A DNA stretch of 64,000 nucleotides, from contig NC_091972.1 of assembly GCF_036711975.1 (NCBI RefSeq), positions 7,259,001-7,323,000 of the forward strand. Reading direction: 5' to 3'. This stretch comes from Onthophagus taurus. Lineage: Eukaryota; Arthropoda; Insecta; Coleoptera; Scarabaeidae. Below are positions 23,881-64,000 of this stretch, in pieces. The notes under the pieces are model-generated. The model saw nothing but the letters and a program-made list of their open reading frames with translations, was not told where the DNA came from and made no database searches. The stretch's first letter is position 1, and each line of letters opens with the position of its first letter. The position numbers were made by a program, and so were the translations under genes.

Positions 23881-26800
23881 ATGGCAGCTACACCAAGCGC
23901 TGAGGGGCCCCCTGAAGGAACCGTTAAGACAATTGGTTGTGCCCACTATAAAAGAAAATCGAAATTCGTGGTAAAGTATTGTCCTAATTATAATTTTTTT
24001 ATTCAAAAATGTTTTACTTATGGTGGTAATATTTTTAGAATTCTTTGTGTATTTGTTGTTGTTTTTGAAGATGATTTTTACATTTCGTTCTTTTTTACTT
24101 TTCTTTGTAGACGCCCTGTTGCAATAAAGTGTACACCTGTAGGTTTTGTCACGATGAAAAAGAAGATCACACGATGAATAGGAAAGAAGTCACCCAACTT
24201 ATATGCACACTTTGTGAAACTCGACAACCTGTACAAGCTGAATGCCAAAATTGTGGTATACGATTTGGGAAGGTAAGAGACTTTGATCATTCCGATGATC
24301 ATTTTTCAAAAAAGGTTAAACGATTATTTGACCTTTAATTGACTTAAGTGATTTGCTTATGTACCAGATAATTTTTCTTTCTTTCTTATTTACTTTATTT
24401 AACCACATGATTCTCATATAAAAGATATATTTAAATTAATTCATTTCATAAAAAAAATTCTAACCTCAATCACTTAATGTTTTTTACTTTTATTAATTTT
24501 AATATTTTTTGTAGTATACATGTCTTGAATGTAATTTATTTGATGATGAAGACAAGAATCAATATCACTGTTCAGGTTGTGGTATATGTCGAGTAGGAGG
24601 TTCGGACCGTTTCTTCCATTGCGAAACATGTAATATGTGTCTTCCCATTCAACTCCAAAACGGCCACAAGGTAAATAATAACAAATATTGCGATTAACTT
24701 AAATGTAAATTTTAATTACAAGCTATAATAAAATTGGTATGTTTGTATTTTGGGGAATGGTACACTCGCAATTGCGTTTTGTCGCCATCGTCATCGTCAA
24801 CAGACCGAATGTGGGCTATTTAACGCGTTATCTTTATGGTTGGGCAAATAAAATTATTATTATTGCACCTATTGAAGCCGGTTCTAACCTATATTTGGCA
24901 CAGGTTTATTGTCATTATTGCTATTGATCAACTATATTCAGACTTTGATTATCTTATTCTGGAATGTCTAATAATGTAGAAAAAAATATGTTATGTAATT
25001 TAATGTTGTGGGTTGGGTCTGGACATAAAAGGACTTTTTTTTATAATAAATTCTTTTCTTAATTTTTTTTGTAACATATTTTCTTTTTTTTTTCTTAGTG
25101 TGTGGAAAATGTATCACGTGCCAATTGTCCAGTATGTTTAGAAGATATCCACACGTCGCGGATACCGTGCCATATACCAGCCTGTGGTCATCTTTTACAT
25201 AGAACATGTTTTGAACAATTATTAAAAGCGGGACATTACGCTTGCCCAATTTGTCAAACTTCTGTAATGGACATGACGGAATTGTGGAAATTTCTTGATG
25301 ATGAAGTAGCCCACACTCCTATGCCACAAGAATATAGAAATTATATGGCGGCTATTTTATGTAAAGACTGTCACACGGTAAAAAATATTTGTATTTATTA
25401 ACCCTTCGGCGAGCGCGTCTCATAGAAAGTGATAAAATAAAAAATTTTTGATATCTAAACATCAACTAATCATTTGAATTGCTAATTGCAGAAAGGATGT
25501 ATTCTTATGTCAATAAAACTTAGGTTTGAGAAGAACTGGAAATTGCAAATTTTCTTCTGGCTAGTAAAAACATCAACTAGTATCAGTTTTTTTTGACATA
25601 GATCATAAAAATAAATTTGTGTAATTAATTTTTAGTAAGATTTAATGATCGAAATCTTATACTCTTTCTGCACTCAACTCCAAAGTTAATAAAAAAGAGG
25701 GATATTTTCCAAGAAACAGTTTATTCAACTAAATACAAGAACAAAAACTAAACTTACAATGATAAATACCAACTCAAAGCTACATTTCTGAAACTGCAGT
25801 CTTTCTATGCAGTTTGGGCAATAATATCCTTTTCATCTATTACATGAATCATGACTTTCTGTTTTGAAGTAGAGTTTGCTATTATCTCTACATATTGTTG
25901 AGTATAAACACGATCATACTTTTTTAATTTTCGCTTAATGTGGGAAAAATCTCTATCACAAGGTAGAAATGAGTGTTCTTTAATAGGAAAGTATTGTTCT
26001 ATTTTGTCATATCTACGTGTATCTGTTAAATAAAGACTCATTCGAATAAGAGTGTTATTTTTGTTCTGTCCAGGACAGTTGTCACTCAACAAGTGTAACT
26101 CTTTGGCATTATCAGGTATATAATTTCCAATATATTCATACAGAAAATCATTGGGCCTCTTTTTGGCGTTACCCTCATGATATATAAAATACACAACTGT
26201 CGTCATGTTATGAATACAGAACAAACTGACGGTTAATTGTCTTAAATAAAAGAGATCCTGTATAGGAATTTTTGGAGTTGCAAATTTTGCATGAAGTCGA
26301 AAGTTAATGCTACAACATTATTATTTTCTTTTGATAGTGCTGTTAATTCGTGTAAAGTTGTATAACATTTTTTGCTACCTCTTTTATGGATAATCATTTC
26401 TGCCACTGCAGCTTGTTTAACATTTTCGCTTACCCTTTATTTTTATTGAAAAGTTTTTGCACGCATCATGTATCTACTTCCTGCCTACCAAATTTAAGAT
26501 CAAAATCTTCTCTGAATAGTTTATTATAATATTCGTATTTCATTTTACTATTTGGAATTTTTTGTTGAATCATTGAATAGATAGTTTTCACTGTTAATTC
26601 TGAATTAGGGTAGTGATATTCCTTTGGCGAGTAATGGGACGTTTTTACAGGAAATGTAGAAATATGTTTGTGAATTCGTATTTTATCTACAGAACTGATC
26701 GCATTAGCAGTAGTCTGTTTCCCTGTTTTATCTTTAGGTGTCATGCAAAGAAGATAATATTTAAATGTCGAATTACGCAATTCTTCTGTCTTGCTGTTTG

Positions 26801-31471: not shown

Positions 31472-32760
31472 CTAAAAATTGAAATCAACTATTATTACAA
31501 CACTCATATAAGTTTTAATGCTTCATGGTCAATTTTATAGATATGCAGATAAAACTAGAGGCTTTGAACACAATTTTGACTTGACTGGACTTTTATTTCT
31601 GTGCGATGATTTTATATTAAACTTGGTACCTTTATGACATATCCACTTTTTGAAAAAACTTAACTTCCCTGATAATTTTCCATGGCATTGAATAATAAAT
31701 AATTTATTTCAGAAGTCATTTTGATTAACTCTGTACTCTAATGTAAATTGTTGCAAAAATACAACTTAAATGCACTAACAAACGCTGAATGATAATGGTA
31801 CATTTGTTTGTGTGTTAATTTTTCAAGCATTGTCCTGCAAAAACTGCGAACCAATTAAAAGATCTGGTAGAAATGTTACTCCTAAGAATTGATTTACAAG
31901 TATAGAGCTGTTGGTGAGCTTTATCTAGCAAACTATTTCTTATTACGATTACTAGATATAGTTTTTAAAAGTAGAAAGAGGTTGCCAGAAAATTTCGAGC
32001 TGTAAAATGCAGTTTGCTTAGGTTTTGTGAAAACACCATTTCAGCATCCTATGTGTATACCAAAAAAATGATACTATTGATGTAAATACTGGCAAGATAA
32101 ACATAGACACGGGCATTAATGTATCATTTATCATATAACCCTATTACAACTAGAATTAGAAAAGAGTTTCTACAAAATCTGATATAAAATTAACTGATGG
32201 TCATCTTCATTAACGTACTCAGCGTCGATGTTTGTTCAAGCAATTATCATCTAGAATAAAAGAAATTGTAGGACAGAATATCCACTGAATAAGGTTAAAC
32301 ACGAATTTAACTTCAAATTAACGACATCTTTTGCCTGGCGGCCGTTTTTACTGAGAATTGCGGACTCACAGTCTACCGCGCGTACTGAAAGGTTAAAAGT
32401 AGCACAAATTTAAAGGTCGCAAAAATGATCGTAGATTATACTACCTTCGGATCACAGATTAGTTTCAAACCTACCTTCATTATATCAAAACAAACGACTC
32501 AAGTTAATTAGATTTATAATTTTGATCATGTTAATCTGATGTATTTTCTACCGCTAGATGTCATACACAACAAAATTGCCCTTAATAACTTGACAACGCT
32601 GTGAAAGCTTCATGTGTATTCCACAATATTAGTCGATCGGGATATATTTATAATACGGTTGTTGCTATATAAGTTGTTTAAAGATCCACGTTACAGTGTA
32701 ATGTGTGAAAGTGTCGTTTAAGTGAAAAAAAGTGTTTTTGTGTTAAATAATAGAAAAATT
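31472..32760. other. Intergenic DNA leading to the piggyBac transposase
   Basis: No gene called. TTAA at 32319 is followed by CGACATCTTTTGCCTGGCGG, faintly like a piggyBac end, but no matching inverted partner was found on the right. The 32640-32760 part (ATATATTTATAATACGG, then ATATAAGTTG) is a plausible promoter and leader for the transposase. Confidence 0.35.
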
Positions 32761-34536
32761 ATGGAAGACCAAGAAATATTAGAAGTATGTAAACAAGAAA
32801 TATTGTCTGAATGTGACATTGAAAAAAACATTCAAGGACTATTTGATAATTCGCTAAAAGTAGAAGAAGATAGTGAAGCCGGAAGTGATTTGAGTGATGA
32901 AGCAATTGAACCGAATTATTTTGATAGCGCATCTGAAGAGAATATTTCAGATGATGAAGAAAACATTAAGACATACGCTAAAGATTTTTATGTTGGAAGA
33001 GACAATGTTAGCACGTGGATGAAAACAAAACACGCAAAATCAGGAGAAACTAAAACGATGGACATAACAAAAGAAATTCCAGGCCCTACTTATTGTGTAA
33101 AAAATCTTAGTGAGTTAGAGTTATTTCAAAAAATTATTGATATTTCAATGCTTGAAGATATTGTGACACATACAAATACATACATAGAATCTCTGAGATC
33201 AAATCATGATTACGCGCGAAGCAGAGATATCAAAGATACCAACACTATTGAATTAATGGCTTATTTGGGATTACTTTTCTTGTTGGGGCTTAAAAAGTCG
33301 AATTTTGCCAATGTAAAAGAAATTTGGAGCAACGATGGAACTGGTATTGAAATAACTAGAGCGGCAATGAGCTATAAACGATTTTTGTTTTTAACACGAT
33401 GTCTCCGTTTTGATAATAAAGCTACAAGAGACGACAGGCGTAAACTTGACAAATTGGCAGCAATTCGGAGCTTCTTTGATAAATTTGTAGAAAACAGCCA
33501 AGCATCTTTCAAATTAAGTGAATTCGTCACCATAGACGAAATGTTGCATCCCTTCCGAGGAAAGTGCGCATGGATTCAAAATATGCCAAGGAAACCCGCT
33601 AAATATGGGTTAAAAATCTACGCGCTTTGTGACGCAAAAACGTTTTATACATTTAATTTAGAGATTTATTGTGGCGAGCAACCAGACGGTCCGTATATGG
33701 TATCTAACGAACCGATGGATGTTGTAAAAAGATTAGTTAAACCGATTGAAAATTGTCATAGAAATCTTACCACCGATAATTATTATACCAGCGTTGCTTT
33801 GGCAGATTATCTGCTACAAAAAAAAATAACACTAATTGGAGCAATAAAAAAGTATAACCAAGAAATCCCGTCAGAATTCCTACCAAATAAAAGTCGAGTT
33901 ACTCATTCGACTTTATTTGGATTTCAATCAAACAAAATGTTAGCTTCTTATGTGCCACACAAAAATAGAGCCATCATTCTCCTATCTACGAAACACAATG
34001 AAGGAAAAATTTATGAAGGCACAAATAAGCCAGAAGTAATAATTGATTATAACTTTACAAAATGTGGAGTTGAAACAGTAGATAAATTATGTACCACTTA
34101 CACAGTATCACGCAAAAGTAAAAGATGGCCATGTGCGATATTTTTTTTCTTATTAAATGTTGCTGGTATAAATGCGTATGTTTTATATTCTTTTACAAAA
34201 ACAAGTGTTGCAAGCAGCCGTAGACATTTTTTAAAAAGTCTAGCCATTAGTTTGATGAAACCGCATTTACAATATAGAGCGACTTTGCCACTACCAATGC
34301 ATATAGCAGCATTTTTAAAATGTAATTACTCCCAATCGACGGCGACGGCTGAAAATAATACTACAGAACAACAGTCAGCCAAACGTGGAACTTGCCGTTT
34401 ATGTGTCATGGAAAAAATACGAACAACAGCATCAATGAAATGCTCAAAATGTTTTTCATTTACTTGTAAAAAACATTCTGTCGTAAATGTGGTTTGTTTA
34501 GATTGTGAACATGCAACCCATTCAAATTTGATGTGA
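32761..34536 (+). CDS. piggyBac transposase with uninterrupted reading frame
   Basis: 591 residues from ATG at 32761 (an in-frame GTG at 32722 would extend it but is unlikely in an animal). An acidic N-terminus (DLSDEAIEPNYF) is followed by the DDE_Tnp_1_7 core: the first catalytic Asp in [15 protein letters not shown], the second in NLTTDNYYTSV and the third in KCGVETVDKL. The C-terminal cysteine-rich domain is complete: CRLC, MKCSKC, CKKH and CLDC. All catalytic and zinc-binding positions I can recognise are present with no stop or frameshift, unlike every other DNA-transposon gene in the window except none. It could be a recently active element or a domesticated PGBD-like gene. I could not find a convincing pair of TTAA-flanked inverted ends. 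Confidence 0.9.
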   Translation: MEDQEILEVCKQEILSECDIEKNIQGLFDNSLKVEEDSEAGSDLSDEAIEPNYFDSASEENISDDEENIKTYAKDFYVGRDNVSTWMKTKHAKSGETKTMDITKEIPGPTYCVKNLSELELFQKIIDISMLEDIVTHTNTYIESLRSNHDYARSRDIKDTNTIELMAYLGLLFLLGLKKSNFANVKEIWSNDGTGIEITRAAMSYKRFLFLTRCLRFDNKATRDDRRKLDKLAAIRSFFDKFVENSQASFKLSEFVTIDEMLHPFRGKCAWIQNMPRKPAKYGLKIYALCDAKTFYTFNLEIYCGEQPDGPYMVSNEPMDVVKRLVKPIENCHRNLTTDNYYTSVALADYLLQKKITLIGAIKKYNQEIPSEFLPNKSRVTHSTLFGFQSNKMLASYVPHKNRAIILLSTKHNEGKIYEGTNKPEVIIDYNFTKCGVETVDKLCTTYTVSRKSKRWPCAIFFFLLNVAGINAYVLYSFTKTSVASSRRHFLKSLAISLMKPHLQYRATLPLPMHIAAFLKCNYSQSTATAENNTTEQQSAKRGTCRLCVMEKIRTTASMKCSKCFSFTCKKHSVVNVVCLDCEHATHSNLM

Positions 34537-37904: not shown

Positions 37905-38260
37905 AGTTGTCAATGATATCGCTGATTTTATTTATATTAACGTGATATGATGTTACAACCACTCAGATTGCGTCACGACCGTAGCCAATCAATGACATCG
38001 CAGATTTTATTTATATTAATATGATATGATGTTGTTACAACCACTCAGATTGCGTCACGACCGTAGCCAAATCCTAAAAGGATAAGGTGAACGATCATCG
38101 ATGATATCATTCAAGGCTAATGCCTTAAAATCAATCCTTCTCACGCTCAGATCGCAGCGCTACATCTCGTCATCATGGTTGCAACGACTCCACAATTGAA
38201 TGTAGAGTATGTGAAGATATACTACAGAAATGATCCTGTGAAGTATGATCTTAAAGTATC
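37905..38260 (+). repeat. Unclassified interspersed repeat, copy 1, with an internal tandem duplication
   Basis: An 80 bp unit ending ACAACCACTCAGATTGCGTC then ACGACCGTAGCCAA occurs twice in tandem (37905-37990 and 37991-38071). It continues into GAACGATCATCGATGATATC, CTCACGCTCAGATCGC, GACTCCACAATTGAATGTAG and AAATGATCCTGTGAAGTATG up to about 38250. The same order of blocks recurs at 58989-59222 and, truncated by the window edge, at 63921-64000. The family has no protein frame and no obvious terminal inverted repeats. Confidence 0.75.
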
Positions 38261-45906: not shown

Positions 45907-46781
45907 ATGAAGAATTTAATACGAAGAACGTTAGAGAACCTCTCAAAGTTATTAAATCTTCTTTTAAATGTACAAATTGAGCCTAAACATTTTCGACATG
46001 CTAAATTTGATCAATCAGATGATGAAACGGTAAATTATAATTAAATTAGGTATAAGTGTGATCTAATTCGTTCTGGTTATTTAATTAGGTTATGATTTTT
46101 TGGTGTTTACTAAAAAAATTAACGAAAAATACAATTAATTCATCCGTGGATGACGTTAAACGAATTTTCCATTCTTTAAAATATAAATCGCTACGTTTTT
46201 ATTGTTTACCATCAGATATGACTCAAGGAAGTTACCAATTACTTTTAGCCTTTGGTTATTTAATCAACAATGGCTTCTTATATGATTATCTAAAAGAGAA
46301 CGTTTATAAAGAAACATTAAAACCGATTTCTCATACTTACAAATCACACCGTTTAGATTTAAATTGGAATAAAGATGAATTAACTAAAAAACAAACCATC
46401 GAATGGATTAAAGGAAAGATAAAAATTAACGAAAAAATAATCGAAGAAACAAATATTGCAATTGACAAATTTGTATCCCAATTAAATAAAGACGTTACAA
46501 AGCCATTGGGAAAGTTAACATTAATGCAATGGTTAGCTTTTGGAAAAGATAAACGTTACGAACGTGAATTTTTATGCGATATCGATAAGAAGATTATGAT
46601 TTTGGAATGTTACGAAAAGTTTATCCAAATGGAACGTGTATTTTGGGATTGGATGAGTTCTGTGCATCAAATGAATAGTGGAGATGTTCTAAATTACGAT
46701 GAAATTTTAAAATTTACCGAATTAATTTTGAAAGAACAGATTAAAAAGGAAAAAATGGTTTTGTTTAAATTAACAGAATAA
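45907..46781 (+). CDS. TEDC1-like (tubulin epsilon and delta complex protein 1)
   Basis: Two exons, 45907-46029 and 46089-46781, give 271 residues. The N-terminal order EPKHFRHAKFDQSDDE, then a helix with FWCLLKKL, then YCLPSDMTQGSYQLLLAFGY, matches what I know of TEDC1 (human C14orf80), where an FRRAKFD motif and a DGSQGSRELLLAL motif occupy the same places. The remainder is helical and Lys/Glu-rich with WIKGKIKINEKI and LTLMQWLAFGKDKRY. TEDC1 partners TEDC2 with delta- and epsilon-tubulin to stabilise centriolar triplet microtubules; that is known from vertebrates. Drosophila lacks delta- and epsilon-tubulin, so presence in an insect would be notable. It starts 575 bp after the ABHD2 stop, on the same strand. 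Confidence 0.7.
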
Positions 46782-56580: not shown

Positions 56581-58988
56581 AAAACATGCAACATAGTGAT
56601 ATCTTATGTTAACTAGAGCTATCTACCACTGTCATTAGAACAAACATTAGAGCTAGAAACATTCAGACATGTTGCATTTTATGATTTATGTCCCGGTTTC
56701 TATGAAAATATATTTTTGTGTATTGCATTTTAAGTGAAATTCACTGAATGTATAATTTGTTAGTGTCGGGACAAAACGATTTCGAGTTATACACATTTAA
56801 AGGATTCTAGTAATTCAATTATATCTTTTTTTCCAACTCTTGGACACGATATCATAAAAACTACTTGACCAATCTTATAAAATTTTTTTTACACACGTCT
56901 TCTTAACTCGGTCTTCATTCTTTCCACATAGTTTTTAAGTGGCTTGGAATTAGCCTTGTAGCGATTAAAATATTGTGGTTTAATCTAGTTTTGAAAGGAA
57001 AGTTGTGTCATCAACTTTACAAGTGTCTAAAAATATTGGTTTAATTAAACTACTGTACATCGATTTTACAAAGTTTCTATTCTTTATGACACGACCTCTA
57101 TAAAAAAAGTCATAACGAAACCAATAGAGCCTCGTAATTTTGATTAAAGCATTCTCATCCGCCCGATTTAGCTGGGTGTAATTTTGCCAGAAACGTTGTC
57201 GGGTGGGTCGTTCAATAATTCCTCGTTATCTGCAAACGTTGATTAACCGAACTCTACGGATTCGTCCCAGAATCGGGTAACAATGTCATTCTGGGCACGT
57301 GCAATTGCATGGAAATGCATCTACTTTTTAAATATATTATTTTAATTTTATTATTTTAAATAAAAATAGTTTCATCTTTCCAGATAGAGATCATATCTTT
57401 TGGTAATTAAAGAAAATGTTATAAAAACGGAATTTGTATATACAAAGAATATTCACCCTCAATTTACAGCTCGTCAACTTAAAATTGCCAAAGTCTGCGT
57501 TTGACACGGTTATTAACAGACCGTGAGAAGCAATTTTCGAACCGACAAAAAAATGTTAGAAAAACAAATTTGACATTGTATTTTTTTTTGTGAAAACATG
57601 TTATGAAAACGAGATATTGTTCTCACACGTTCACATATTACCACTAGAAATGTCCACCAGGAATAATAATTGTAGTTGTTTTCCGAAATAAATTACGCCC
57701 CGACTACAATTTCTGCCTGTAATACAATTGATGACTTAATAAATAACAACGCTGGGGAATCCCCCTCGACAAATAATTATTTATATTGTCGTTGCAGTCG
57801 CAATTTATTTCTGATTTATGTAACATCGAATCATTGGGTGAATTACCGTGTATGCTTTTTGTGATTAATCGCACATCCCTGCGTTTGGGGGCAGTATTCA
57901 TAATAATAATTATAATTGTACATTAATATTTGATGATTAATTTTGTCGTACTGTTTTGAATTCTCTAACATTTTATAAAGAGTTCAAACAAAACCGATTT
58001 AATTATTATCTCAAAATTGCTTTATTATAATAAAATCGATACAAATATTTTCGCAATGTGATTAAAATTAATAATAATCGGATTACATTGCAAAGATAGT
58101 TGATAAGATAATATAAAATTTGGAAAAAGCATTACAATGAAATGTAGTGAAAATATTATACCGTATCAAAACACCAAGATTATTAATTTAGACAAATGTG
58201 ATGGTTGAGTAACTTACAAGTAAATAGTTACATTCCTTGTCAATATGAATATTCCACAAACATAGATTTCTCAATAATGATGTTTATAGAGAAAATTTGT
58301 GGAAATAATATATACACGTGACCGTGTACACTTTGTTTGTATAACGTCCCGTTGAAATGGCCATTAACTAATAATCGAGGCGGAAATTACGAATGGTAGA
58401 CTCAAACATCAGTGGACCGAATTATGAATTTGATTGTTAGAATGTCATGAATGCACTAATTATGTCATGGAAATTGTGGATTTGGTCGATGCTCTTCCCG
58501 AATCATTCAACCTAACGGCCAGTTAGTCCACCTCTAACAATTCTCCAACAAACTCTCTAACGGTGAATCCATCGATTAATTTGTTTCGCGTTTACTGGGA
58601 TTGGGCGTGATTATCGATCTCTACCACCACATCCTTCTCCGCTTTAACAATAACCTGTACATTTAGATTAACAATCGATTTATTCATTTCTAGGTGAGGT
58701 AGACAAGGTTCCCTGGTACCCCATCACCAACGGTGAATGTATTGAATGTATTTGCACACGACAGGTTTACGTCACTTTTAATTTGCATTTGCGCCGGAAT
58801 ACGTTAAGCGAATGGATGCAATCCAGAATGGAGATGTAGAAGGGATGGGTTTTGAATTTGAGGTGGGGTAAATTAGACATTGCAGGAAATATAGGAAGAC
58901 AGGATGTCGATAAACCTGTGGGAATATCATTTGATTGTAATATCAATTATGTAGGTGGGGTATCTAATAAAAATAATTTAGTATGTTA
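56581..58988. other. dpr intron or intergenic DNA, no gene seen
   Basis: Scattered short frames (57676-57901, 58852-59043) have no motif. Sequence is AT-rich with no inverted ends that I could pair. Confidence 0.4.
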
Positions 58989-59222
58989 TAAATATTGTTA
59001 CAATCGCTCGGATTGCGTAACGATCTTAACACAATCTAAATGATTGGGCGAACGATCATCGATGATTTCATCCAAGACCAACTCAGGCCTTAAAATTAAT
59101 CCTCCTCACGCTCAAATCGCTACGCTACATCTCATCATCACGATTGCAACGACTCCACAATTGAATGTAGAGTATGTGAAGATATACTACAGAAATGATC
59201 CTGTGAAGTATGATCTTAATTT
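58989..59222 (+). repeat. Unclassified interspersed repeat, copy 2
   Basis: Shares ordered blocks with 38038-38260: GCTCGGATTGCGTAACGATC, CGAACGATCATCGATGAT, CTCACGCTCAAATCGC, ACGACTCCACAATTGAATGT and then a nearly identical stretch from GAGTATGTGAAGATATAC to AGTATGATCTTAA. Identity is highest at the 3' half, as in elements copied from a 3' end. Contains no tandem duplication at its 5' edge, unlike copy 1. Confidence 0.8.
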
Positions 59223-59721
59223 ATTCATTGTATCATCAACGTTGTGAGACAATAAAAATATAATGATTTTTATAAGAAGAGTCTAGCGCCATCTTGGAGA
59301 TAAAGTCTAATGTTATTGGAGACAGTTTTTATCTTTTCTAAATCAAAAGTGATTTTTATTTGATTTGTTTAGCATCAACATGTAACTTGTGGTTTTATAT
59401 GTATATGTAATAACGCCTCGTGACTAGCAATCGAGGATCGGGCGCAAGCGTATTTGAAAATATTGTTTTTTTAATCAAGAGCTCCAACGATCATGGGACA
59501 GGTACATGAAGTATGCATCTGCGATCGGCCAAATCATCCAATGATCGCGAACAAGCACGTATGGTCATGCCATTTAGCGCTTTGTATAATGGATTTGTAA
59601 AAGATCGATATGTCTGTTTGTTTCTGTTACTGAAAATGTGGGTAGTATTATTACAGAAGTAAAAACGTAGGAAAAGTAAAAAACTTTTTTGAGAAATAAT
59701 AATAAAATGTTTAATTTTATC

Positions 59722-59763
59722 AAGTATACATGTTTCGAAACTAATGTTTCATCTTCAGTACCT
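59722..59763 (-). ncRNA. Hammerhead ribozyme motif, left arm of the Penelope palindrome
   Basis: Exact mirror of the right-arm motif. On the minus strand, stem I AGGTA (59763-59759), core CTGAAGA, stem II GAAAC-ATTA-GTTTC, core GAAA, stem III CATG, TA before the predicted cut, then TACTT (59726-59722) completing stem I. Assigned by hand folding. Confidence 0.7.
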
Positions 59764-60112
59764 AAATTTAAAAGAAAATAAGAAACAATTAACAAATGTT
59801 AAACGGAACGTGTTAATACGGTAGGAGAAATCGGACTTTGAAAAAGTGAACTTACTTGGATTAATATACAATAAATGGAAAAATTATTAGGTAGTAGGTG
59901 GGGTTTAAAAATATATCAAGATATCCTTCTACTTTTCAACAGATAAAAAATTATTATCATAAATAATTTTTAAAAAATTATAAACAAAAAACCCTTTCAA
60001 CAATCTAGTCAATCTTGGAATACAAACATACAATAGGGGTGTGGTTTAAAAACGTTTTATGTCGGTACACGTACGGAATACAGAATGATGAAAAATTCTT
60101 TGAAGTAATCAG

Positions 60113-61330
60113 TTAAAATTTATGGTATAGGCGGGTGTATTTGTTATCTAATAATTCATTTAATAGAACATTGGTGTTATCCTTGGAATGTTTATAGATC
60201 TCATATTCTTCCAGTAAGTCCAACTTCAAAGATTTAGGTTGGTGATGAATGAGTTCTGTATTGTTAAGATTTATTTTATGATTAGTTTCATTAATATGTT
60301 TGAAAATCGCGGAATTTTTATCTTTATTATGTTCTTTGAAGCGTGTTAATAAATTTCTCCCTGTTTGACCTATATAAATTTTGTTACACTCACTACAGGA
60401 AATTTTGTAAACTCCATTGAGTAAGTGAAAATGAAATTTGTGTTTATTATTGACGAGGATATTGGAAATTTTAGTGTTGTTTTTAGTGGCTATGTATATG
60501 TTATGTTTTTTAGTTATGTGGTGTAATTGATTGATTATGGGGTTGTACTTAGATAAAGAAATATATTTAGGTGGCAGTTTGTAGTGAGGATAAACGAATG
60601 AGATGATTTTATTGTTATGTACTTTGTAGAAGATGGTTTGCATGTCTTTAATGTTATAACCGTTATTTAAGCCTATTTTTATGATATTACAAATTTCCGA
60701 ATTGAAATTTTCAGTGTTGAGGGGTGTGTTGATGGCTCTGTTGAATAGGAATCTAAACGCAGCCTCTTTATATTTGAAGCTGGTAAAGGAATTTTTAGGT
60801 ATAATTGTGTCTGTAGTAGTGGGTTTACGGAAAATGTTGAAAATGAGGGAAGAATTGGATAGGTTTTTGGAAATTTTTAAATCTAGAAAATTAATGCTAT
60901 TATTAACTTCTTTCTCAATTGTGTATTCGAGATTGCTGAGATTATTTATCAAATTAAATAGAGCTATAAAATTAGCATCAGACCCATCATAAAGAATGAG
61001 GATGTCATCAACATATCTACAATAGAATTTTATATATTTGGTGGCAAAATGATTTTTTAAGGAAAATAATTGATATTCTAAGTTGGAGACGTAAAATTTG
61101 CAAGAAGGCCAGACAAGGGGGAACCCATAGGTAAACCGTCTGCCATTTCGTAGAAATGGTCATTAAAAATGAAGAAATTTTGATTGGTTATGTTTTTAAG
61201 TATATTAATTAAATTATTTATATCATTATTGGTAATGTTTACTGGAAAATTATTATTATTGTAATCAGTCTTGTTAGAAATTAGAAAGTTTTTTATGATT
61301 TTTAAAGTTTCTTTGATTGGGACATTGGTA
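60113..61330 (-). pseudogene. Left-arm Penelope RT-endonuclease, frameshifted
   Basis: The C-terminal 279 codons (60952-60113) are identical in protein sequence to the right-arm copy, including the GIY-YIG nuclease. Upstream the minus strand still reads NLYTNVPIKETL and MADGLPMGSPLSGLLA, but at about 61100 the left arm has GCAAATTTTACG where the right arm has GCAGATTTTTACG, a one-base loss that breaks the RT frame. This arm keeps more of the 5' coding sequence but is not translatable as one protein. Confidence 0.85.
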
Positions 61331-61369
61331 TATAGATTTTTTATATAAAAAATCTATATATATCTATTA

Positions 61370-62530
61370 TTGTCTGATTACAATAATAATAATTTTCCAG
61401 TAAACATTACCAATAATGATATAAATAATTTAATTAATATACTTAAAAACATAACCAATCAAAATTTCTTCATTTTTAATGACCATTTCTACGAAATGGC
61501 AGACGGTTTACCTATGGGTTCCCCCTTGTCTGGCCTTCTTGCAGATTTTTACGTCTCCAACTTAGAATATCAATTATTTTCCTTAAAAAATCATTTTGCC
61601 ACCAAATATATAAAATTCTATTGTAGATATGTTGATGACATCCTCATTCTTTATGATGGGTCTGATGCTAATTTTATAGCTCTATTTAATTTGATAAATA
61701 ATCTCAGCAATCTCGAATACACAATTGAGAAAGAAGTTAATAATAGCATTAATTTTCTAGATTTAAAAATTTCCAAAAACCTATCCAATTCTTCCCTCAT
61801 TTTCAACATTTTCCGTAAACCCACTACTACAGACACAATTATACCTAAAAATTCCTTTACCAGCTTCAAATATAAAGAGGCTGCGTTTAGATTCCTATTC
61901 AACAGAGCCATCAACACACCCCTCAACACTGAAAATTTCAATTCGGAAATTTGTAATATCATAAAAATAGGCTTAAATAACGGTTATAACATTAAAGACA
62001 TGCAAACCATCTTCTACAAAGTACATAACAATAAAATCATCTCATTCGTTTATCCTCACTACAAACTGCCACCTAAATATATTTCTTTATCTAAGTACAA
62101 CCCCATAATCAATCAATTACACCACATAACTAAAAAACATAACATATACATAGCCACTAAAAACAACACTAAAATTTCCAATATCCTCGTCAATAATAAA
62201 CACAAATTTCATTTTCACTTACTCAATGGAGTTTACAAAATTTCCTGTAGTGAGTGTAACAAAATTTATATAGGTCAAACAGGGAGAAATTTATTAACAC
62301 GCTTCAAAGAACATAATAAAGATAAAAATTCCGCGATTTTCAAACATATTAATGAAACTAATCATAAAATAAATCTTAACAATACAGAACTCATTCATCA
62401 CCAACCTAAATCTTTGAAGTTGGACTTACTGGAAGAATATGAGATCTATAAACATTCCAAGGATAACACCAATGTTCTATTAAATGAATTATTAGATAAC
62501 AAATACACCCGCCTATACCATAAATTTTAA
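61370..62530 (+). pseudogene. Right-arm Penelope RT-endonuclease, 5'-truncated open frame
   Basis: 386 codons open to stop TAA at 62528 (first codon here is TTG, so the natural start is missing). RT blocks: DGLPMGSPLSGLLADFYVSN (about residues 45-64), YCRYVDDILIL with the catalytic YVDD (87-90) and NSINFLDLKISK. The GIY-YIG domain starts at about residue 286 with NGVYKISCSECNKIYIGQTG and RNLLTRFKEH; a Glu-rich LLEEYEIYKHS follows. This is the RT plus GIY-YIG order that defines endonuclease-bearing Penelope-like elements. The N-terminal third of the usual protein is absent, so activity is not expected. Confidence 0.88.
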
Positions 62531-62879
62531 CTGATTACTTCAAAGAATTTTTCATCATTCTGTATTCCGTACGTGTACCGACATAAAACGTTTTTAAACC
62601 ACACCCCTATTGTATGTTTGTATTCCAAGATTGACTAGATTGTTGAAAGGGTTTTTTGTTTATAATTTTTTAAAAATTATTTATGATAATAATTTTTTAT
62701 CTGTTGAAAAGTAGAAGGATATCTTGATATATTTTTAAACCCCACCTACTACCTAATAATTTTTCCATTTATTGTATATTAATCCAAGTAAGTTCACTTT
62801 TTCAAAGTCCGATTTCTCCTACCGTATTAACACGTTCCGTTTAACATTTGTTAATTGTTTCTTATTTTCTTTTAAATTT

Positions 62880-62921
62880 AGGTACTGAAGATGAAACATT
62901 AGTTTCGAAACATGTATACTT
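62880..62921 (+). ncRNA. Hammerhead ribozyme motif, right arm of the Penelope palindrome
   Basis: Hand folding gives a complete type I hammerhead. Stem I: AGGTA (62880-62884) with TACTT (62917-62921), one G-U pair. Core box CTGAAGA (62885-62891). Stem II: GAAAC (62893-62897), loop ATTA, GTTTC (62902-62906). Core box GAAA (62907-62910). Stem III: the self-complementary CATG (62911-62914). UA at 62915-62916 precedes the predicted cleavage. So short a palindromic stem III implies pairing between two copies. Penelope-like elements are known carriers of such ribozymes. Activity is not shown. Confidence 0.72.
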
Positions 62922-62983
62922 GATAAAATTAAACATTTTATTATTATTTCTCAAAAAAGTTTTTTACTTTTCCTACGTTTTTA

Positions 62984-63350
62984 TTTATTACTAGAGAAAT
63001 ATGGAGAATTTCATCCCATTTATTACAGAAGCTATATTGTCCTTCAAATGTGAATTTCGGTCGCTATTTTGAAAGTAGTTTACTTAGTAAGGTCATATTC
63101 AATTATAGTAAGTTAATGAAAAAAATTATAATGTAGATTATATCAAGTTATTTATTTTAAACAATAGATAAAAATATATATATTTAATAGATTTAGGGCT
63201 TAAAGTATGTAAAGGCGAATCCATCATCGATCCAACATCAAAGTAACTGGAAGCATACTAACTTCAGATATTTTGAACTTTTTAAGAACTTTTGTATATC
63301 TCAAGTTATTTTAGAAGATTCACTTTCAAATTTCCTCGAGTTATGTTAAT
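62984..63350. other. AT-rich DNA between the palindrome and the MITE
   Basis: No gene or repeat recognised. Confidence 0.4.
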
Positions 63351-63776
63351 ATACAGGGTGTATCAGGTGTAGTAGAAAATAATTGAATCGTTTTGCCATT
63401 CTTAAGATATGATACGATAAAGTTAAGGGTTTGAAAGTTTAAGTACTGCGTATAAAGAATTATACTAAGCAGGCTTTGCTTATGTATATAGCTTTAATTT
63501 GAGACATAAAAGTCATTTTTGAGGTATTCTTTTAGAGGTTGTTTACGTTATACCAATAAATTTATCACTTCTGTTTTATCACTCTTTAATGTGAAAGTTT
63601 ACAAAAATTTAGGTTTTAATAAATAAACTTGCTTAATTGTATTAAAAACAACAAAACTAGAAATATATCTTAAGAAGGATAAAGAATGGGACATTGTGTT
63701 AAAGAATTTTTTATTTAGAAAGAGGAGATCTATAACCCCTCAACTTTTCTTTACTCATACCTGATACACCCTGTAT
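63351..63776. repeat. 426 bp MITE with inverted ends ATACAGGGTGTATCAGGT
   Basis: The left end ATACAGGGTGTATCAGGT (63351) and its exact complement ACCTGATACACCCTGTAT (to 63776) are followed by a further diverged match. Flanks are AT-rich with TA on both sides. Interior has no open frame. Related TACAGGGTG-type ends occur in the CSPP1-like intron (14524, 16410) and a lone one at about 7527, suggesting a mariner-type family active across this region. Confidence 0.85.
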
Positions 63777-63920
63777 ATATATTATATAAATAAAGGATTA
63801 TGTAATGTAAATCGCTACCGTTATTTATTATAAACATATTTGATTCTAGTATCTCGGTATCAATCTATAGAGACACAATAATAAACATGTTCGCGGGTTA
63901 AAGTTAATTATAAAAGTTTT

Positions 63921-64000
63921 GCAACCGCTCGGATTGCGTCACGACCATGATCTAATCCCAAGAGATTAGACGAACGATCATCGATGACTTCATCCAAGAC
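63921..64000 (+). repeat. Unclassified interspersed repeat, copy 3 (cut by window edge)
   Basis: Begins TTGCAACCGCTCGGATTGCG then TCACGACC and reaches CGAACGATCATCGATGACTT before the window ends, following the same order as the copies at 37905 and 58989. Its first 30 bases are closest to copy 2. Confidence 0.8.

Follow-up and report, generated by a model that had tools for sequence, protein, structure and literature searches.

The window, a 64,000-nt stretch of the Onthophagus taurus genome, contains a palindrome at 59657–62986, which alignment against its own reverse complement recovers as one inverted repeat of 98.35% identity, the centre included. Nearly all of it is made up of two gap-free arm pairs, 59657–61096/61547–62986 (1,440 nt; 100% identical by self-comparison, 99.93% by blastn) and 61093–61268/61374–61549 (176 nt; 99% by self-comparison). 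Both arms are 5'-truncated copies of a Penelope-like element (PLE) with their 3' ends pointing outward, and each encodes the C-terminal part of the Penelope-like open reading frame (ORF). On a reference unit of 2,973 nt, the copies begin at positions 1288 (left arm) and 1366 (right arm). Only one substitution and one gap in 1,608 aligned nucleotides distinguish the arms, and the differences sit at a frameshift near 61100. The features of the locus are collected in Table 1.

Table 1. Features of the palindromic insertion, in window coordinates
Feature	Position	Strand	Remark
Left target-site duplication TTATTACAGAAG	59648..59659	.	length is an upper bound
Left arm, 5'-truncated PLE copy	59660..61346	-	3' end (about 59660) lacks the tail; inner end is unit position 1288
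Left-arm open frame after the frameshift, 348 aa, GIY-YIG	60113..61159	-	
pLTR intron of the left arm, GT-AG, 94 nt, retained	59762..59855	-	identical to 62788–62881
Perfect palindrome, 32 nt, at the junction of the arms	61329..61360	.	
Filler, 27 nt	61347..61373	.	first 14 nt repeat the left-arm end in inverted orientation
Right arm, 5'-truncated PLE copy	61374..62986	+	inner end is unit position 1366; body extends to the tail-less start site
Right-arm open frame, 393 aa: C-terminal reverse transcriptase part and GIY-YIG endonuclease	61349..62530	+	
TATA-like ATAAAA	62583..62588	+	31 nt upstream of the inferred RNA start; motif picked by eye
Inferred RNA 5' end (pLTR transcript start)	62614	+	both arms of minis L031 and L032 end there
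pLTR intron GTAAGT...TTTAG, retained	62788..62881	+	precisely missing from mini copies
Tail, 33 nt, right end only, containing the ORF start ATGGAGAATTTC	62987..63019	+	
Right target-site duplication TTATTACAGAAG	63020..63031	.	

An earlier note on this DNA had described a near-perfect palindrome of two head-to-head Penelope-like copies, with a one-base frameshift in the left arm near 61100. The self-alignment bears out both points, placing a gap between the arms at the frameshift. The C-terminus common to both arms, put at 279 residues in that note, comprises 327 residues. The right arm had also been said to lack a block containing the NLYTNVP motif. The NLYTNVP codons do fall in 78 nt possessed by the left arm only, but nothing has been lost internally; the right arm is simply truncated further from its 5' side.

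The 12-nt sequence TTATTACAGAAG lies directly outside the left arm, and its second copy follows directly after 33 nt of extra element sequence at the right end. These extra letters, for which the PLE literature uses the term tail (PMC3846280), run on into the opening codons of the element's ORF. Because the duplication surrounds the whole structure, it marks the palindrome as one insertion and not as an assembly chimera. Judged from the assembled sequence, the palindrome is real and represents one recent integration of a GIY-YIG PLE, as the earlier note had proposed in suggesting a single recent insertion.

An intact natural tandem copy of the element, present elsewhere in the genome, has a 2,973-nt unit with a single ORF of 835 aa, which matches RVT_1 with 54 bits (cut-off 29.6) and GIY-YIG with 31.6 bits (cut-off 22.6). 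The right arm in the window scores 30.7 bits for GIY-YIG and 26.4 bits, below the cut-off, for a partial RVT_1; GIY-YIG was found in the left arm too. Tandem arrays with a period of about 2,973 nt occur at C1:31.64 Mb and C19:0.17 Mb, while the window copy itself has no tandem unit. The element has the hallmarks of a PLE, with reverse transcriptase and a C-terminal GIY-YIG domain in a single ORF, pLTR-giving tandems, a 30–40-nt tail at some 3' ends, a short target-site duplication and an intron in the pLTR/5' UTR, the last of these being reported for some PLEs. The tail is 33 nt long in the window and 32–41 nt in other families (41, 36 and 32 nt in L049, L050 and L051, respectively). A search of 58800–64000 for a hammerhead ribozyme, which many PLEs are reported to have in the pLTR, gave no Rfam match up to E = 1, a threshold that a degenerate motif could escape, and no relative of solved structure emerged from a PDB sequence search at E 0.001.

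Dimers with a single tail across the genome

The survey covered a 290.8-Mb assembly in 33 contigs. Fifty-seven loci were examined, of which L001–L008 repeat places already in the window or in later loci. In the genome searches, 40 of 287, 217, 225, 188, 241 and 142 candidates were scored, and 105 of 3,904 in another; unpaired matches and older copies that were not retrieved were set aside. A DNA query consisting of one arm repeatedly returned minus-then-plus pairs with 99–100% identity (40 of 287 candidates scored). Among protein matches (at least 107), neighbours within 6 kb were arranged head to head in 16 cases, tail to tail in 2 and in the same direction in 10.

A tail was present at exactly one end in 31 of the 33 two-armed loci scored at both outer ends. 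If the two ends were chosen independently and with equal probability, 31 or more one-tail loci among 33 would be expected with a chance of 6.5e-8. The tail was on the left in 17 of these dimers and on the right in 14 (hand-scored). One exception, L052, carries a tail at both ends and lacks a duplication (3 nt in common); the other, L027, has an unclear tail state and was kept in the denominator. The count omits L038, L040 and L042, in which one outer end is missing, and C15:645188, which was seen in the match table only and was not scored. Nine more one-tail dimers, also known from the table only, are among the matches listed, the ninth being C6:30899905/30902848. The rule extends beyond close relatives of the window element. 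The 31 dimers include L049–L051, from families that differ by about 50% in protein sequence, and L053–L057 come from two of those families.

The outer ends of the dimers abut the duplication at one of two recurrent element positions. The longest common flank in the 31 one-tail dimers was 8–15 nt (8 nt in L049 and L053, at least 11 nt in the other 29); these values, like the 14 nt of L044, are upper bounds because chance matches of element letters may lengthen them. Random pairs of 32-nt windows had a common flank of at least 11 nt in 0.1% of cases and of at least 8 nt in 2.2%. With an earlier and cruder null, up to 7% of draws matched the flank length observed at short loci, a figure probably due to windows placed within the palindrome. 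Single-arm insertions with a duplication (common flank of at least 10 nt) were found only at L019, L022 and L045, among 13 candidate or incomplete loci. The inverted dimer is the usual insertion form among the PLE copies sampled. This goes beyond the earlier note, as do the tail, the target-site duplication and the intron signatures that accompany the form.

Large palindromes are a known source of artefacts, and the earlier note had raised the possibility of one at 61345. The palindrome in the window has its own duplication, and 30 other one-tail dimers are bounded by different ones, which at the sequence level argues against a chimera. A chimera would, moreover, repeat flanking DNA, and would not put a single tail at one end. 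We consider an assembly or library chimera exceedingly improbable.

The tail has already been described as optional at one of the inverted pLTRs in the rotifer Adineta vaga (PMC3846280), and the structure as such is of a known kind; it is the one-tail, one-template rule that is informative. We found no statement of a paired one-tail rule in the open-access literature, subscription papers being outside the scope of that search.

Arm identity, splice state and probable RNA start

Over about 600 nt of the last part of the element, the two arms of a locus were identical in nine of ten young loci and differed at one position in the tenth. Arms from different loci differed at 5.4 positions on average and at least at one (200 pairs). 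A comparison of the arms of 15 dimers over 15,533 aligned nt gave 26 differences, of which L049 accounts for 17. Since both arms carry the same source allele at each young locus and the loci differ from one another, copying from one template explains the identity, and the ongoing gene conversion invoked in the earlier note is unnecessary. Two separate insertions, or an inverted duplication arising after insertion and maintained by gene conversion, would also leave arms that are almost identical, as they are. Such a history is opposed by the single duplication that encloses both arms, by the recurrence of the same form across unrelated sites and across families whose proteins differ by about 50%, and by the locus-specific alleles in other element copies; it is very improbable. 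Both arms were probably templated by one RNA molecule. Two RNAs from one source locus would likewise give identical arms.

The splice state of the arms was concordant in all 16 dimers in which both could be read (14 by signature matching, L020 and L021 by alignment): four were spliced in both arms, 12 were unspliced in both, and none was mixed. L027, unspliced in both arms, was left out of this count. Signature matching revealed precise removal of the pLTR GT-AG intron in ten short loci ("minis") of two families, L031–L040. Both arms are spliced in the four dimers L031–L034, and L035–L040 are six further spliced loci. No spliced junction was found by the same procedure in the other F1–F3 loci examined, and long copies of families F1 and F2 with a readable site keep the intron. 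A rule that long copies always do so would be too wide; among the matches listed, those of the L050 family suggest that long spliced copies exist there. Because the GT-AG intron is precisely absent, the templates of L031–L040 are spliced sense RNA.

Minis also share their inner ends. Both arms of the F1 minis L031 and L032 end at unit position 2605, and an arm of each of the F2 minis L033 and L035–L038 ends at 2432–2437, so that mini ends lie at, or no more than 4 nt from, one position per family. This position is about 30 nt downstream of a TATA-like sequence in both families, and is likely the start of the RNA; in L031–L033, both arms would terminate at that start. As the promoter motif lies outside the minis, each of them probably arose de novo, templated by the spliced sense RNA of a longer copy.

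These results bear on an explanation offered for related elements. Pen families of A. vaga encode GIY-YIG and reverse transcriptase in an ORF and have pLTRs, a 31-bp optional tail and duplications of 8–10 bp, with head-to-head copies as the commonest arrangement and palindromes at the junctions (PMC3846280). That study (Arkhipova 2013) attributes such dimers to self-priming, in which an antisense transcript loops back at its 3' end and is extended along itself into a head-to-head repeat with a junction palindrome; it did not exclude an unspliced sense template (PMC3846280). Junction palindromes do occur in O. taurus (32 nt in the window), and retention of the intron in the long F1 and F2 copies is what an antisense template would give. 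However, a sense GT-AG intron is precisely missing from both arms of L031–L034 and from L035–L040, and F1 and F2 minis end at one position per family past a TATA-like box. Antisense self-priming also predicts equal outer ends, whereas the ends are unequal in 31 of 33 dimers. The spliced arms and unequal ends thus argue against the antisense version in O. taurus, where we find it quite improbable. As far as the A. vaga copies are described there, the systems differ further in that the inverted piece is often just a pLTR in the rotifer while both arms can be long in the beetle, in the splice state of the beetle minis, which reflects a sense template in place of the antisense one proposed for the rotifer, and in the end asymmetry, counted here over 33 loci.

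Inner ends and probable two-sided target-primed reverse transcription

The positions at which the two arms stop were compared as offsets (start of the tail-bearing arm minus start of the tail-less arm). In ten long dimers the offsets were 78, 153, 43, -814, -304, 21, 20, 29, 20 and 29 nt. Seven of the ten lie within 80 nt, compared to a permutation mean of 1.5 (p 1.6e-4), in a test from which arrays, old copies and members of other families were omitted, as were dimers bounded by the RNA 5' end. Among the F1–F4 dimers with coordinates, 10 of 23 were within 80 nt vs 1.9 expected (p 1e-5); here, a manual shift of 172 was applied to the F2 and F3 coordinates, and for L020 and the arrays only the coordinate of the innermost unit was used. 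The rank correlation over the same 23 coordinates was weak (rho 0.40, p 0.06; 0.32, p 0.16 without three run-off ties).

In all seven dimers with offsets of 20–78 nt, it is the tail-less arm that reaches further inward, and no case of the tail arm ahead at a small offset was seen among the dimers with offsets. Scored by hand over 39 dimers, eight of them known only from the table among the matches listed, the tail-less arm led in 24 and trailed in 10; in the other 5, the arms were level to within a few nt. The bias is modest (24 of 34 non-tied dimers, two-sided p 0.024), and the 10 dimers with the tail arm ahead have offsets from -249 to beyond -2,000. In this count, L020 and the arrays were judged by total arm length and L049–L051 by open-frame lengths, L057 was assigned manually to the level class, and the ninth table-only pair does not enter.

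At the centres, arms overlap by 1–5 nt or are separated by 2–56 nt of filler; L028 has no gap, and the old locus L021 has 136 nt. Arms of L031 and L032, level at the inferred RNA 5' end, meet with a 2-nt overlap or a 5-nt gap, and unequal arms are joined directly in L035–L037, L043 and L044. Some filler consists of short pieces of arm ends, which resemble products of polymerase theta end joining, and short foldbacks are present in the filler of the window locus and in L038.

We regard it as likely that the palindrome is the single product of two-sided target-primed reverse transcription by a GIY-YIG PLE. The enzyme would cut both target strands with a stagger of roughly 9–14 nt, and each of the two resulting 3' ends would prime reverse transcription of sense PLE RNA, one cDNA starting from the tail site, which lies a few codons into the ORF, and the other about 37 nt upstream, at the pLTR end. 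The two antisense cDNAs would extend from opposite sides of the break, stop before the element 5' end and be joined via microhomology or short filler, which would leave an inverted dimer, head to head and with outward-facing 3' ends, that has a single tail and is flanked by a target-site duplication. On a single RNA serving both primers, the upstream, tail-less start would lead and the tail start would trail; neither enzyme could use the other's start site, and both would copy the same allele and splice form. Should the leader stall, the follower would halt a few tens of nucleotides behind; should the leader run off the RNA 5' end, the arms would be level (L031–L033); and early detachment of one enzyme would give unequal or single arms. 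We infer priming on two strands, both reverse transcriptases on the same RNA molecule, and host end joining at the centre.

Two-sided priming is favoured because 31 of 33 dimers have one tail and ends that abut the duplication at two recurrent positions; because the arms match at each locus, their splice states agree and their inner ends are paired; because three minis (L031–L033) end both arms at the inferred RNA start; and because the enzyme of the lizard element PAc extends both strands from two adjacent sites, in the experiments reported for it (PMC11167929). Against it count the cases with the tail arm ahead, the weak rank correlation, the two-tailed L052, the single-arm L019, L022 and L045, and the flanks of only 8 nt at L049 and L053.

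Paired inner ends would likewise result from fold-back of a cDNA. A simple fold-back, suggested by several dimers whose arms are 20–29 nt apart, was rejected, as it cannot give a tail at one end only. In a more elaborate form, a tail-less target-primed first strand would snap back, copy itself and then anneal to a short tail-bearing cDNA from the other target end. This accounts for the paired inner ends, the 20–78-nt loop and the lead of the tail-less arm in close pairs; the short foldbacks in the window filler and at L038 are consistent with it, and L052, with two tails and no duplication, resembles a pure fold-back. It still requires a second, tail-bearing cDNA, however, since a strand that lacks the tail cannot serve as its template, and it predicts neither level arms at the RNA 5' end (L031, L032) nor the direct joins of unequal arms (L035–L037, L043, L044). 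As a general explanation, cDNA fold-back is unlikely; it may be a contributing step, and may explain L052.

Two-sided priming also bears on the dimeric intermediate suggested in the earlier note. The dimer does arise in one event, but its ends are not equivalent (one tail), both are apparently target-primed, and the join is on the 5' side, so that it looks made at the target instead of having arrived there preassembled. A wider proposal, plausible to us although we stop short of favouring it, is that the basic product of a GIY-YIG PLE is an inverted dimer made from one RNA by two simultaneous reverse transcriptases in convoy, from sites about 37 nt apart, with exactly one tail and with the tail-less arm leading. 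Single and partial-tandem copies would then be derivative, one cDNA being short or absent or the RNA multimeric.

In LINE-1 twin priming, two target 3' ends likewise prime on the element RNA, and microhomology helps to join the cDNAs; because the second primer anneals at an internal position, one copy acquires a 5' inversion. Unlike in twin priming, both PLE cDNAs would begin at 3' start sites, giving two overlapping inverted copies. For PAc (Poseidon, Anolis carolinensis), both target strands were cut and extended in vitro, with initiation at two adjacent internal sites, which define the tail, and without apparent strand difference in the data presented (Frangieh 2024, PMC11167929). In the account given there the start sites are pooled by strand, and the O. 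taurus genome adds that in a single event the two sites are divided between the two sides. The sequence context also differs, both F1/F2 start sites lying in TTTAT (by eye) and the PAc sites in an AC-rich stem-loop.

At stake is how PLEs integrate, and why their copies appear as odd mixtures of inverted and tandem pieces. The O. taurus genome offers many young natural insertions with readable ends, tails, splice states and junctions, and these tie the in vitro result, extension of both strands from two start sites, to chromosomes. If the model of one RNA and two primers is true, PLEs would stand apart from LINEs and LTR elements by their symmetrical use of the two target strands, and large palindromes would be a built-in product of their integration, with possible effects on genome stability and on double-stranded RNA.

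U3 snoRNA matches and open frames in the window

U3-like copies were observed on both sides of the Penelope-like element (PLE) palindrome. The DDE_Tnp_1_7 transposase domain is of the piggyBac type.

U3 snoRNA matches and protein-domain matches in the window
Feature	Position	Strand	Remarks
DUF7869 match	25808-26317	-	short open frame
DDE_Tnp_1_7 transposase domain	32722-34536	+	273.9 bits; 604-aa open frame
U3 snoRNA match	38040-38252	-	full
TEDC1 match	46089-46778	+	short open frame
U3 snoRNA match	59003-59217	-	full
U3 snoRNA match	63924-64000	-	partial, ended by window edge; score below gathering score

PLE arrays and a two-tailed palindrome

Two loci, L011 and L012 (C1:31.637-31.652 Mb), form a PLE tandem array with a period of 2,973, in which two units had 0 differences between them and the 835-aa ORFs are intact. 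The array faces further PLE copies head to head, with one tail and one duplication overall. In another array, on C19, a 1.68-kb insertion lies within a PLE unit (L014:7026-8701).

L052 (C6:21006600-21007060) is a small PLE palindrome with a tail at each end, and a target-site duplication is absent there. Among the 33 two-armed loci scored at both outer ends, it was the sole clear exception to the rule that exactly one outer end carries a tail. L052 is possibly a true fold-back product, generated by cDNA snapping back at its 3′ end and copying itself.

Possible long spliced copies in the L050 family

Among the matches listed, long copies of the L050 family (C3:8404354, C7:40448559, and C6:18208853), one of the PLE families diverged by ~50% in protein sequence, appear to lack a stretch of ~50-70 nt retained in other copies. 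The missing stretch suggests that long spliced copies may exist in this family.
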